Assembly (NCBI GenBank): GCA_946567425.1
Contig: CAMNXF010000006.1
Span: 1 to 64,000 of the forward strand
Origin: an uncultured Clostridia bacterium
GTDB lineage: Bacteria; Bacillota; Clostridia; Oscillospirales; Ruminococcaceae
Direction of reading: 5' to 3'
DNA length: 64,000 nt
In this document: positions 7,225 to 58,046 of the stretch, one piece after another
Layout: each line of letters begins with the position of its first letter
Numbering within the stretch: the first letter of the stretch is position 1
Program-made: the position numbers and the translations under genes
The notes under the pieces: model-generated
Told to the model about the DNA's origin: nothing
Seen by the model: the letters and a program-made list of their open reading frames with translations, nothing else
The model's database searches: none

Positions 7225-9162
7225 TCATCTTATCTTTTCCGCATTTTCCTTAACGATCTTCGCAATTATCTCGTCGAGCGGAGAAGCGCCGAGGTCGCCG
7301 TCCTTGCGCGAACGCAGCGAAACGGTGTTTTCCTCGACCTCCTTATCGCCGACGATGAAGAAATACGGTATCTTCTCAAGCTGCGCCTGACGTATCTTGT
7401 AGCCTATCTTCTCGTTGCGGTTGTCGACCGTTACGCGTATGCCGAGGTCGTCAAGCCGCTTCGCAATACCCTCGCCGTACTCTTTCGCGCGGTCGGTTAC
7501 GGGAAGAATGCGCACCTGCTCGGGCGACATCCAGAGCGGCAGCGCACCCGCATACTTCTCAATGAGGTACGCCAACGTTCTCTCGTAGCAACCGAGCGAC
7601 GTGCGGTGAATGATATACGGATTTTTCTTTGTGCCGTCAACGTCGACGTATTCCATGCCGAATTTCTCCGCGAGCAGCATATCTATCTGAATGGTTACAA
7701 GCGTGTCCTCCTTACCAAATACGTTGTGGTACTGTATATCAAGCTTCGGACCATAGAACGCCGCCTCGTCTATGCCGACGGTGTATTCTACGCCCAAGTC
7801 GTTGAGTATCTTCTCCATTGCCGTCTGCGCCTGCTCCCACTGCTCCGCCGTGCCCTCGTACTTGTTGTTGGGGTTTGCGGGATCCCACTGTGAGAAGCGG
7901 AACGTGCAGTCCTCGAGCATACCTACCGTATTGAGCATATATTTCGCGAGGTCGAGACACTCCTTGAATTCGTCCTCGAGCTGCTCGGGACGGAGGATAT
8001 AGTGACCCTCGGATATCGTGAACTGGCGCACGCGGATAAGTCCGTGCATTTCGCCGCTGTCCTCGTTGCGGAACAGCGTACTCGTCTCCGTTAAACGCAT
8101 GGGCAGATCACGGTAGGAGCGCTGGCGGTTCAGAAATACCTGATATTGGAACGGACAGGTCATCGGACGCAGCGCAAAGCATTCTTTGGTCTCGTCGTGC
8201 GGATCGCCGAGAACAAACATTCCGTCGAGATAGTGATCCCAGTGCCCCGAAATTTTGTACAGCTCGCGTTTCGCCATATACGGCGTTTTAGTGAGCTGAC
8301 AGCCGCGTTTGGCTTCAACGTCCTCGACCCAGCGCTGGAGTATCTGAACAACCTTTGCGCCCTTCGGTAACAGTATCGGCAGACCTTGCCCGATATAATC
8401 AACGGTGGTAAAATATTCCAGCTCGCGTCCGAGCTTGTTGTGGTCGCGCTTTTTCGCTTCCTCAACGCGCTCCAGATAAGCATTCAGCTCGTCCTTTGAC
8501 GGGAATGCGCAGCCGTAGATACGTGTGAGCATCTTGTTCTTCTCCGAACCGCGCCAATACGCGCCCGTTACCGAAGTGAGCTTGTACGCCTTAATGGATG
8601 ACGTGCTCATCATGTGCGGACCCGCGCACAGATCGGTGAAATCGCCCTGCTTGTAGAACGAAATCGGCTCGCCCTTGTCAGCGTGCTCCTTGCACAATTC
8701 GACCTTGTACGGCTCGTCCTGTTTCTCAAGGTACTTTATTGCTTCGTCGGGAGACATCGTAAATGCTTCGAGTTTTATGCTCTCCTTGACGATCTTCTTC
8801 ATTTCGGCTTCTATCTTGGTAAGAGTTTCGGAGGTGAACGGCTCGTCCGTGTCGAAATCGTAGTAAAATCCGTTCTCGATCGCGGGACCTATCGCCAGCT
8901 TCGTCTTGGGGAACAGGCGTTTTACCGCTTGCGCCAGAACGTGCGACGCAGTGTGGTTGAACGCGCGTTTGCCTTGCTCGTCCTCAAACGTGAGCAAATT
9001 CAGCGTGCAGTCCTTGTCAGGGGTAGTTCGCATATCGCAGACCTTGCCGTCGATCTCCGCCGCGCAGGCGGTCTTGGCAAGCCCCAACTCCCGCGCGATG
9101 TCAAACGCCGACATACCCGCGTCAAATTCCCTGACTTCTCCGTTTTTCAGTGTAATTTTCAT
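7225..9162 (-). CDS. thrS: Threonyl-tRNA synthetase
   Basis: A 645-residue class II synthetase that charges tRNA-Thr. Domains in order are TGS (1-60), the editing domain with the HTASH motif near 71, the catalytic core with the zinc-site Cys in MTCPFQYQ, and the anticodon-binding C-terminus from about 535. The usual QDDAH stretch is replaced by FTISEGHYILRPEQ, a variant I associate with clostridial ThrS. The ATG has GAAAGGAA upstream. It heads an operon of thrS, a YoaP-like gene, a lipoprotein, an SseB-like gene and a GT2 gene. The leader is only about 70 nt, too short for a T-box. Confidence 0.97.
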   Translation of the reverse strand: MKITLKNGEVREFDAGMSAFDIARELGLAKTACAAEIDGKVCDMRTTPDKDCTLNLLTFEDEQGKRAFNHTASHVLAQAVKRLFPKTKLAIGPAIENGFYYDFDTDEPFTSETLTKIEAEMKKIVKESIKLEAFTMSPDEAIKYLEKQDEPYKVELCKEHADKGEPISFYKQGDFTDLCAGPHMMSTSSIKAYKLTSVTGAYWRGSEKNKMLTRIYGCAFPSKDELNAYLERVEEAKKRDHNKLGRELEYFTTVDYIGQGLPILLPKGAKVVQILQRWVEDVEAKRGCQLTKTPYMAKRELYKISGHWDHYLDGMFVLGDPHDETKECFALRPMTCPFQYQVFLNRQRSYRDLPMRLTETSTLFRNEDSGEMHGLIRVRQFTISEGHYILRPEQLEDEFKECLDLAKYMLNTVGMLEDCTFRFSQWDPANPNNKYEGTAEQWEQAQTAMEKILNDLGVEYTVGIDEAAFYGPKLDIQYHNVFGKEDTLVTIQIDMLLAEKFGMEYVDVDGTKKNPYIIHRTSLGCYERTLAYLIEKYAGALPLWMSPEQVRILPVTDRAKEYGEGIAKRLDDLGIRVTVDNRNEKIGYKIRQAQLEKIPYFFIVGDKEVEENTVSLRSRKDGDLGASPLDEIIAKIVKENAEKIR

Positions 9163-9242
9163 AGTAAATTCCTTTCCGATAGGCTATACGAATGCCTAAC
9201 CGTTTTTAATCCGCGTATTGTTGGATACAGATACGCAATTAT

Positions 9243-9271
9243 ATTCTACATCTTTTTAAACGAAAAGTCAA
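9243..9271 (-). promoter_or_regulatory. thrS promoter
   Basis: TTGACT and TAGAAT on the minus strand are 17 bp apart. The short leader contains two small hairpins, GCGTAT/ATACGC and TAGGC/GCCTA, before the ribosome binding site. Confidence 0.7.
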
Positions 9272-9321
9272 GCGTATTATATACAAATTCGCTCTTTTTT
9301 GGTGAAATTACGAAAAAACTC

Positions 9322-9350
9322 TTGACATTTTGAAGAAAATAAAGTAAAAT
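9322..9350 (+). promoter_or_regulatory. Strong promoter of the non-coding transcript
   Basis: A consensus TTGACA (9322-9327) lies 17 bp before TAAAAT (9345-9350). It is divergent from the thrS promoter and no protein gene follows on the plus strand for almost 800 bp. Confidence 0.85.
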
Positions 9351-9356
9351 ATAGGT

Positions 9357-9720
9357 GGACGAAGAAAATCGTCCGCCTTGCCCGACCGAAACGGCGGAGG
9401 TTTAAGGAATTTCAGCTTTGAAGCGCCGAAAATCGAATAGGTTTTCAGCTGTCACAACCTTGCGGAAAAGTCCCTTTGCAAGGAAAGGCGCGGGGCGGCT
9501 GTGTTTCGCAAAACAATGTCAGGAGGAACGGCAAATTTCAATTAACGCAGAGATCGGTTTCGAGCGCGATACGGAGAGGTAAACCGAGCGGGGACGTTCA
9601 GGCTCACCGCGCCGATCGAGTAAACCTGCTGATTAGGCGTTATTTTAAGTAAACCGTTAAGTAAATACAGAGGGGTTGTATCACGAAAGCGACGAACGAT
9701 CGCGATACAGCCCCTTTTTT
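9357..9720 (+). ncRNA. Candidate structured non-coding RNA, about 360 nt
   Basis: The unit has a near-consensus promoter, no plausible open frame, and a terminator at its end. A 9-bp stem opens the RNA (GGTGGACGA with TCGTCCGCC). Later pairs include CCTTGC/GCAAGG enclosed by CACA/TGTG, GATCGG/CCGATC enclosing GCGCG/CGCGC, and the competing CGGTTT/AAACCG. The motif GTAAACC occurs three times (near 9580, 9620 and 9650). I looked for hallmarks of RNase P RNA, tmRNA, SRP RNA and the cobalamin riboswitch and saw none. raiA-type RNA is possible but I cannot confirm it. The 3' end converges on the ferredoxin gene. Confidence 0.65.
9672..9720 (+). terminator. Terminator of the non-coding transcript
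   Basis: GGGGTTGTATC pairs with GATACAGCCCC across a loop of about 20 bases, followed by a run of six Ts. Confidence 0.85.
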
Positions 9721-9726
9721 GCGTAA

Positions 9727-9757
9727 AAAAGCGCCCAAGCAAAACGCTCGGGCGCTT
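9727..9757 (-). terminator. Terminator of the ferredoxin gene
   Basis: On the minus strand GCGCCCGAGC and GCTTGGGCGC form a stem around TTTT, followed by six Ts. It lies back to back with the terminator of the plus-strand RNA. Confidence 0.85.
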
Positions 9758-9771
9758 CTTATGTAGCCGAA

Positions 9772-9942
9772 TTAGTTAGCTTGGGGAGCGCCAACGGGGC
9801 AGGTGTCTGCGCAAGCGCCGCAGTCGATACAGGTGTTAGCGTCGATAACGTACTTGCCGTCACCCTCGGAAATTGCGCTTACGGGGCAACCGTCTGCGCA
9901 AGCGCCGCAAGCGATGCACTCATCGGAAATCTGATATGCCAT
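9772..9942 (-). CDS. 2[4Fe-4S] ferredoxin
   Basis: A 56-residue clostridial-type ferredoxin, an electron carrier for anaerobic metabolism. Two cluster motifs are visible: [12 protein letters not shown] near residues 9-20 and [12 protein letters not shown] near 38-49, giving eight Cys ligands for two 4Fe-4S clusters. The ATG is preceded by a perfect AGGAGGT. It is transcribed alone, with its own promoter and terminator. Such ferredoxins accept electrons from pyruvate:ferredoxin oxidoreductase and serve hydrogenases; the partner is not in this window. Confidence 0.97.
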
Positions 9943-9991
9943 AGTTAATTACCTCCTGATTTGGTCTTACACGCTAGGTGTATCACTTTAT

Positions 9992-10019
9992 ATTTTATCA
10001 TATTTTCAGAAAAAATCAA
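9992..10019 (-). promoter_or_regulatory. Ferredoxin gene promoter
   Basis: TTGATT and TAAAAT on the minus strand with 16 bp spacing, about 50 bp upstream of the start codon. Confidence 0.65.
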
Positions 10020-10125
10020 GTATATTTTCGGAGAAAATTGCCGCATGTTTTTGTACAATTTTGCTTAGCAAAGACTAACTTCGCACAGCGCCGCGCGTTT
10101 TTTTAAACCTAGGAACAACAGATGG

Positions 10126-10154
10126 TTGCAATCAGGCAAAAAATGGTGTATAAT
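10126..10154 (+). promoter_or_regulatory. Promoter of the zinc-ribbon/darA/holB operon
   Basis: TTGCAA (10126-10131) and TATAAT (10149-10154) are 17 bp apart, 38 bp before the first start codon. Confidence 0.8.
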
Positions 10155-10191
10155 ATAATAGAAGAGTTTTACGTCGCGGGGAGGTGAAGTC

Positions 10192-10980
10192 ATGCTTAAA
10201 CAAGGAAGACGAATATGCCCTTGCTGCGGAAAGCCGTTGTATCTTATGGGTAAAGTTCTCGGCGATAAATATCACGAATTTTATCTTGGCGAGAAAGTCA
10301 CGACAGCAAGCCGATACAAGGAAACCTTTGAAAGGAACAAAATATGGAACAGCGCGGTAAATATGTACTGCTCCGAGTGCGGCGTCAGAATAAAGCTCTT
10401 GAATGAACCGTTTTTGATGCCGGGTATTGTTTCGATTTTTATAGTGCTTGCGGTATTTATATCTTCCGTTATCGCGGCGCTGCTTGGAACAAACATCATT
10501 CCGAAAGTTCTGCCGCCAGCGGCTGCCGTCGAGACCGTGTTGATTATTTATGCGGCGGCACGGCGCAATAATATAATGAAGTACGAAAGCAATTTCACAT
10601 TTGTTGATGAGACCATACCGATATTTGACGGGGAATTTAACTTTAAACCGAATGTGCGCGCGGCGATAGAACCCACTAAAAAGCAAAGAAAATACCTCCG
10701 CACGGGGAACATATTTGAAACGGAGCTTTCGTCCTCGCGGGTCTATCTGTACCTGATAAGTCTGCGTAAAAGCAGCTCTGTCTGCGAGCTTGAGCTGCGG
10801 TTCTGCGGCACGGCGGACGACGCGGAAAAATATTCACGTTCCCTTAAAAAAGCGGAAAACCCTGTAACGATTCTCTTGACGTTCGAGGGCAAGTCCGTCG
10901 GTACAGCAGCGGTCACGGAGATATACGAAATAAAGACTGAGGTCTTTAATATAAATTATTACTATTGGAGGACAATATGA
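10192..10980 (+). CDS. Zinc-ribbon membrane protein of unknown function
   Basis: 262 residues. An N-terminal pair of CxxC motifs (CPCCGKP near 9 and CSECG near 62) could bind zinc. Two transmembrane helices follow at about 75-100 and 104-122. The remaining cytoplasmic part, roughly 125-262, has no motif I recognise. A strong GGGGAGGTG precedes the ATG. The TGA stop overlaps the ATG of darA, so it is translationally coupled to darA and holB. Function is unknown. Confidence 0.75.
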   Translation: MLKQGRRICPCCGKPLYLMGKVLGDKYHEFYLGEKVTTASRYKETFERNKIWNSAVNMYCSECGVRIKLLNEPFLMPGIVSIFIVLAVFISSVIAALLGTNIIPKVLPPAAAVETVLIIYAAARRNNIMKYESNFTFVDETIPIFDGEFNFKPNVRAAIEPTKKQRKYLRTGNIFETELSSSRVYLYLISLRKSSSVCELELRFCGTADDAEKYSRSLKKAENPVTILLTFEGKSVGTAAVTEIYEIKTEVFNINYYYWRTI

Positions 10981-57708: not shown

Positions 57709-58046
57709 TGATTTTTCAACCTTTCTTCGTTAGTTATTCAGCGGACGAGTAACTTTCCGCTTTTTCTTTCTGCCCCTCTTTTGCGCAAGTGAGGAGACAA
57801 ATTGCCGGCGAAGGCTTAATTTGAAAAATCCACCGAGCCGTGTGTTTCGTTTTCTTGAACGCACCTGTTAGTTACCCGAGTTCTCTCGGACACTTTAACG
57901 GAGCTTTTCAAAACGAACGCCCGTTCCGTAAAACTTTTCGCCCGAATTTAATTCGGACATACTCCGTCGAAATTACCGCGACCGCGTTTCACGCCGCGCA
58001 ACCTCCGACTTCATCGCCATGGCGGCATTGTTTTCACAAACCACCG
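57709..58046 (-). promoter_or_regulatory. Long 5' leader of the S10 operon
   Basis: About 335 nt lie between the predicted start of transcription and the rpsJ ATG. No gene is present. Several stems are possible, for example CCGAG/CTCGG near 57890 and AACGGAGC with its partner GCTCCGTT nearby. Its length suggests a regulatory leader bound by a ribosomal protein such as L4, but I cannot show that. Confidence 0.5.

Follow-up and report, generated by a model that had tools for sequence, protein, structure and literature searches.

A standalone structured RNA gene found in one genus of Clostridia

The 64,000-nt window analysed here, from an uncultured Clostridia bacterium, contains a standalone non-coding RNA gene on its plus strand (9322–9720), with a sigma-70 promoter, a predicted transcript of about 364 nt and a hairpin terminator. 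The gene joins these signals to a covarying structure and shows no apparent conserved reading frame. On comparative sequence evidence, this standalone structured RNA forms a new class at the level of a genus and is comparable in general kind to raiA, OLE or 6S. An original prediction, made from the window alone, had proposed a structured RNA with its own promoter and terminator, and this is borne out by homologues, covariation and the promoter pattern. The new class that it had considered as a possibility fits, while its suggestions of a raiA-type RNA and of switching are not supported. Few large structured bacterial RNAs of unknown function have been described, and the best known of them are widespread. 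The present RNA is elaborate yet found in a single genus, so it can be used to ask how RNAs of this type originate and what they take the place of. It has been detected in held-out genomes and shows compensatory changes and a constant promoter, which makes it ready for submission to Rfam and for probing of its structure.

Table 1. Features of the RNA gene and its neighbours, in window coordinates
Feature	Position	Strand	Details
thrS	7225–9162	−	divergent from the RNA gene
Sigma-70 promoter	9322–9350	+	TTGACA - 17 nt - TAAAAT; 11/12 consensus matches
Predicted transcript, ~364 nt	9357–9720	+	start from promoter, end from T run; conserved block, unconserved flanks
5' hairpin	9354–9377	+	GGTGGACGA (9354–9362) with TCGTCCGCC (9369–9377), one G-U pair; inner six pairs 9357–9362 with 9369–9374
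Domain D1	9421–9499	+	closing helix, hairpin, second hairpin, pseudoknot; model R1, covariation
D1 closing helix	9423–9427 with 9487–9491	+	GCGCC/GGCGC
D1 first hairpin	9428–9434 with 9440–9446	+	GAAAAUC/GGUUUUC (general form GAUUUUC)
D1 unpaired strand	9447–9456	+	AGCUGUCACA; AGCURUCACA in 33/33 D1 rows (24 chosen by the motif, 9 found by model)
D1 pseudoknot	9470–9496	+	GUCCC (9470–9474) with GGGGC (9492–9496); covariation
Domain D2	9543–9647	+	rod of stacked helices, e.g. 9552–9558 with 9628–9634; model R2, covariation
3' hairpin and terminator	9672–9720	+	GGGGUUGUAUCACGA...UCGCGAUACAGCCCC-UUUUUU, stem sequence conserved; alignment, covariation
Ferredoxin gene, small	9772–9942	−	convergent with the RNA gene

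Gene limits and coding potential

The promoter predicted for the RNA is present in the window and recurs throughout its relatives. All 37 homologous loci carry a promoter of the TTGAC[A/T]-17-TANAAT type, which appears in 5 of 740 sequences when the upstream regions are resampled at first order. The −35 element is TTGACA in 33 loci and TTGACT in 4, the spacer is always 17 nt, and the −10 element is TAAAAT in 27, TACAAT in 9 and TAGAAT in 1. The reverse strand of the upstream stretch also shows the promoter pattern in 26 of the 37 loci. Each of these loci has a single reverse-strand site, except L121 with two that overlap; the sites are found 47 to 128 bases ahead of the forward −35, at positions that fit promoters of divergent genes.

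Sequence conservation among the four closest relatives begins at the promoter and ends at the terminator. Four-way identity per 30 bases is 13–33% at 9172–9321 and 77% over the promoter, then 43% at 9352–9381, 70–93% from 9382 to 9651, 40% at 9652–9681 and 80% at 9682–9711, after which it falls to 0–27%. The predicted fold of 9355–9720 has an energy of −131.1 kcal/mol versus a shuffle mean of −108.0 kcal/mol (z −4.4), and beats 100 of 100 dinucleotide shuffles. The longest start-to-stop frame is 58 amino acids in the window RNA and ranges from 27 to 143 over the 37 loci, and within the RNA the four closest relatives differ by gaps of 1, 2, 4, 12, 13 and 14 bases. Since gap lengths that are not multiples of three occur and the longest frames are variable, the RNA is read as non-coding, and no conserved frame is apparent over the 37 loci.

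Covarying domains and terminal hairpins

The search for homologues and covarying pairs proposed with the original prediction yielded 37 related loci, in which D1, D2 and the terminator hairpin covary strongly. D2 is present in all homologues found: model R2, built from 26 sequences, matches 37 of 37 loci, 26 of them the model-building ones. Of the D2 cells, 93.4% are paired, and 43 are two-sided versus 15.0 in shuffles. Alignments A3 and A4 carry a bias towards the model structures, to which they were fitted, and A2, A5 and A6 were made with MAFFT; on a MAFFT alignment not fitted to the model, D2 has 29 two-sided cells versus 9.5. The covarying D2 pairs are AAUYGGU with GCYGAUU and GCGAU with AUYGGGU.

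D1 is a three-helix fold, and its pseudoknot joins the loop of the second hairpin, GUCCC, to a GGGGC strand directly 3' of the closing helix. Over 32 distinct rows, 93.3% of the cells in the 23 D1 pairs are paired; in the closing helix pairing reaches 100%, and all five of its pairs show a two-sided change. D1 has 86 two-sided cells; shuffles give 18.7 (sd 4.3), and sliding the partners gives no more than 28. The outer pair of the pseudoknot is GC in 27 of the 32 rows and AU in 4, the second is mostly U-G, the third is nearly invariant, and the innermost is formed in 13 of 32. Judged from these rows, support for the pseudoknot comes mainly from its outer pair. Model R1, built from the D1 of 24 sequences, finds D1 in 33 of the 37 loci, with no D1 match in G009, G016, G024 and G031, all of which keep D2. 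One sequence (L021) was left out of the D1 alignment A1, where its closing helix aligned poorly, and was later matched by the model as L107. The linker between D1 and D2 measures 323 nt in L121 and 252 nt in L096, versus 37–129 nt in the other 31 D1 loci; that of L121 holds repeated CCGCA...TGCGG-like units.

G-U cells exceed A-C cells in D2 (234 versus 10), D1 (39 versus 0) and the terminator (29 versus 5), which indicates that the plus strand is the functional strand. With D2 everywhere, D1 in 33 of 37 loci, an AUCGGG motif in 21 and one type of 3' hairpin in 30, the RNA is therefore modular. Switching between alternative pairings, which the original prediction had raised, is not borne out by the two pairings counted. 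On the 37-row alignment, the covariation score of GATCGG/CCGATC was reached by 88 of 500 shuffles and that of CGGTTT/AAACCG by 305 of 500. A third proposed pairing, CCGCC/GGCGG against the first stem, involves a 5' part of the RNA that does not align over the 37 loci. Alternative pairings can be drawn, but the covarying structure is built from other pairs, in D1 GCGCC/GGCGC and the GUCCC-GGGGC pseudoknot.

The predicted 9-bp opening stem can be drawn in full, whereas the minimum-energy fold takes only its inner six pairs; its outermost bases fall on or just ahead of the probable transcription start (~9357). The sequence of this 5' hairpin is different in each close relative, and the stem can still be drawn by eye. 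A 5' AUCGGGA motif occurs in 21 of the 37 loci, and 16 of these place it in a simple hairpin loop; among the loci compared, those of the window's own clade showed no AUCGGG. Counted over these 16 rows, with five loci carrying an inserted hairpin left out, the AUCGGG hairpin has 13 two-sided cells versus 4.2 in shuffles. The number of its pairs with two-sided changes was reached by 119 of 500 shuffles, and its further pair types are not above shuffles (372 of 500 reach the value).

At the other end, the strong terminator that had been claimed is a real and conserved hairpin with a T run. A hairpin-T terminator of one type closes 30 of the 37 loci, and its hairpin has 60 two-sided compensatory cells versus 13.3 in shuffles, with further pair types not above shuffles (219 of 500 reach the value). 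The pattern GTATCRCGA-N-TCGYGATAC has one site only in the window's own genome. A simple terminator scanner did not list the 9672–9720 hairpin. Five loci without the usual terminator hairpin (L095, L099, L103, L109 and L122) have AAAUUAUCG-type hairpins 3' of D2, which resemble, by eye, the 5' AUCGGG hairpin of other clades. Three GTAAACC copies had been pointed out, and all are present in the window, at 9579, 9620 and 9649. The copies at 9579 and 9620 occupy aligned positions of D2 that show variants in relatives. The third lies within a segment 12–14 bases shorter in the three closest relatives, so the triple set is not a conserved feature.

Distribution, genomic setting and known families

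BLASTN matched 29 of 100 genomes including the window's own, all from its genus. R2 matched 35 of 41 genomes of the genus, with one copy each, and these together with two BLASTN matches outside the R2 sample (G041 and G042) make up the 37 loci. Eight genomes matched by R2 had no BLASTN match and belonged to neither the R1 nor the R2 building set (G003, G004, G008, G012, G015, G022, G033 and G037). In all eight, R1 finds D1 on the strand of D2 and upstream of it, with E values of 1.1e-14 to 2.8e-5. Among the 41 genus genomes, R2 gave no match in G002, G005, G007 and G010, which are 96–99% complete, nor in G019 and G030, which are 73–77% complete. Because four near-complete genomes have no match, the RNA is not essential genus-wide.

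Beyond the genus, searches under stricter filters, in which weak matches may be lost, found only the window's own genome (R2 over 295 genomes of the order, R1 over 197 of the family, R3 over 391 of the class). The family sample for R1 held two other genus members, both missed: G010, which has no R2 match, and G031, which has D2 without D1. A pattern scan of GTDB 220 genomes returned 15 contigs, all from Clostridia or Oscillospiraceae MAGs, and added no new species. By blastn the window sequence matched no plasmid or phage, and no viral contig carried either of two exact degenerate patterns. A literature search whose scope excluded subscription papers, preprints and supplementary tables found no report of this RNA. 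Fremin and Bhatt describe 3,161 intergenic candidates (PMC8040213), a set that could include it.

The predicted setting, between a divergent thrS and a convergent ferredoxin gene, is that found in the window. Directly upstream and divergent, thrS occurs in 17 of the 37 loci, and in two more it lies farther off in the other orientation. Other upstream neighbours are dCTP deaminase (5 loci), PurD (2), GH130 (2) and SecA (1), and D-alanyl-D-alanine carboxypeptidase lies upstream on the same strand in 4; the remaining 6 have another neighbour or a contig end. Neighbour families were annotated on representatives, ten proteins in all. The transcription unit is constant while its neighbours change between clades, which argues for action in trans. 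A fixed same-strand downstream gene, the mark of a cis-acting leader or riboswitch, was not found over the 37 loci, where neighbours vary. In the window, thrS has a promoter-like site at 9271–9243 on the minus strand. The thrS genes of many Clostridia carry a T-box; no Rfam T-box match was found for thrS in the window.

The Rfam search proposed with the original prediction returned only chance-level matches at 9322–9720. With Rfam 15, the region 8500–10500 gave four matches up to E 10, the best at 24.1 bits (SpF39, E 3.9) against a cut-off of 60. Two touch the RNA on its strand, SpF39 (9305–9383, E 3.9) and BSnc120 (9680–9778, E 4.8), and both, far below cut-off, look like chance. Searches of 20 homologous loci gave 14 matches with E values of 0.08–8; several fell outside the RNA, at which none of the families recurred.

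Of the families that the original prediction had set aside, RNase P RNA, tmRNA and SRP RNA likewise gave no match at the RNA. RNase P (RF00010/RF00011) has a separate class A copy on contig C14 of the window's own genome (263 bits), and a large SRP RNA (RF01854) lies at C14:44899–45138 (76.5 bits, over cut-off). The 6S family (RF00013), also without a match at the RNA, matches separately at C14:56966–57161 (38.6 bits, below the cut-off of 46.4); a separate 6S match occurs in 27 of 31 genus genomes, over cut-off in 6. ARAGORN found no tmRNA in the window, and RF00023 has no match at the RNA. tmRNA is over cut-off in 19 of the 31 genus genomes, and in G003, G009 and G014 it scores above 160 bits, with the present RNA on another contig. 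The window's assembly and 11 others of the 31 have no tmRNA over cut-off, which may reflect gaps in the assemblies, or an ssrA that has diverged or been lost.

6S RNA has its own promoter, is single-copy and acts in trans; the present RNA shares the first two properties, and trans action is proposed for it here. 6S folds as one long hairpin with a bubble at its centre, which the present RNA does not. A start AGCGCC followed by a hairpin and a later GGCG is reminiscent of the glmS ribozyme (RF00234), a family that the searches of the window region and the 20 loci did not list up to E 10.

Up to E 10, the window region and the 20 homologous loci gave no match to raiA (RF03072) either, and the suggestion of a raiA-type RNA was dropped. 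Genome searches with RF03072 found it in 0 of 31 genus and 0 of 119 family genomes, but no control genome gave a match either, so absence of raiA from the genus is not proved. As described in PMC11706538, raiA/ModT is a standalone pseudoknotted Bacillota RNA at a single locus, with neighbours uninformative on function and a published model of eight helices and two pseudoknots. The present RNA is likewise standalone, pseudoknotted and at a single locus, with neighbours that do not reveal its function. It differs from raiA in length (a 209-position Rfam model versus ~364 nt), in range (more than 2,500 species versus one genus) and in that comFC and raiA genes are not among its ten annotated neighbour proteins. 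OLE, ROOL and GOLLD are treated as large orphan structured RNAs in PMC12286853. They too gave no match up to E 10 in the window region or the 20 loci, and the present RNA is shorter, with no phage link or fixed protein gene found for it.

Proposed mode of action and alternatives

We consider it probable that this is a trans-acting structured RNA, single-copy and found in one genus, which is probably strongly and constitutively transcribed and would serve as an RNP component or a global regulator. The constant strong promoter, the terminator, the single copy, the structure and the changing neighbours together suggest action in trans, probably with a protein partner. What the sequences show is the gene with its strand, structure, promoter and terminator sequences, copy number and distribution, whereas its expression, partner and function are inferred. 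The rod D2 would form the core platform, and the D1 pseudoknot with the nearly invariant AGCURUCACA strand would form a module that recognises a protein or target. Stability would come from the hairpins at the two ends of the RNA, of which the 3' hairpin would also end transcription and may bind protein. The RNA would then act as 6S or raiA/ModT RNA does, and not as a switch for a neighbouring gene.

A rather unlikely alternative is a base-pairing regulatory RNA, in which the unpaired AGCUGUCACA of D1, and in 21 of the 37 loci also the 5' AUCGGG loop, pairs with mRNAs of the genus, and the domains serve mainly for stability. Its unpaired stretches are conserved, and its confinement to one genus in the samples searched agrees with a statement in PMC11706538 that most base-pairing sRNAs are seldom found beyond genus or family. 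The covarying, pseudoknotted structure is, however, more than such RNAs need, and AUCGGG, not found in the window's own clade, offers no common seed. Distinctly improbable is a trans-encoded aptamer or catalytic RNA in which D1 forms a ligand pocket or an active site. A compact, pseudoknotted shape with an invariant unpaired strand, as seen in D1, is shared by many riboswitch and ribozyme cores, but the RNA has no fixed downstream gene to control, four loci keep D2 without D1, and the Rfam matches up to E 10 in the window region include no ribozyme or riboswitch.

The size of the RNA, near that of tmRNA or RNase P, together with the window's own assembly lacking a full tmRNA match and no raiA match in 31 genus genomes, could point to a highly diverged housekeeping RNA (tmRNA, 6S, SRP, RNase P or raiA). 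This is nearly refuted: the genome has RNase P, SRP and a 6S match below cut-off at other places, three genomes (G003, G009 and G014) have tmRNA and this RNA on separate contigs, and none of these families is found at the RNA up to E 10 (window and 20 loci). We regard as scarcely credible, too, that it belongs to a neighbouring gene as a cis-acting leader or 3' UTR. Its start adjoins thrS in 17 of the 37 loci, but thrS is on the opposite strand with a promoter-like site of its own, neighbours vary by clade, and 30 of the 37 loci end in a terminator hairpin of one type. Returning to the trans-acting RNA that we favour, a bolder version, quite unlikely in our view, would make D1 the machine of the new class, either a metabolite-sensing aptamer in trans or a catalytic or RNP core, arisen in one gut-Clostridia genus and having a raiA-like role in growth control.

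Outside the RNA gene, the window's sole Rfam match over cut-off is an S10-Clostridia ribosomal protein leader (57938–58022, minus strand). A second hairpin (AGCGCCCAAG...CTCGGGCGCTT) at 9730–9757, just past the RNA terminator, probably ends the convergent ferredoxin gene.
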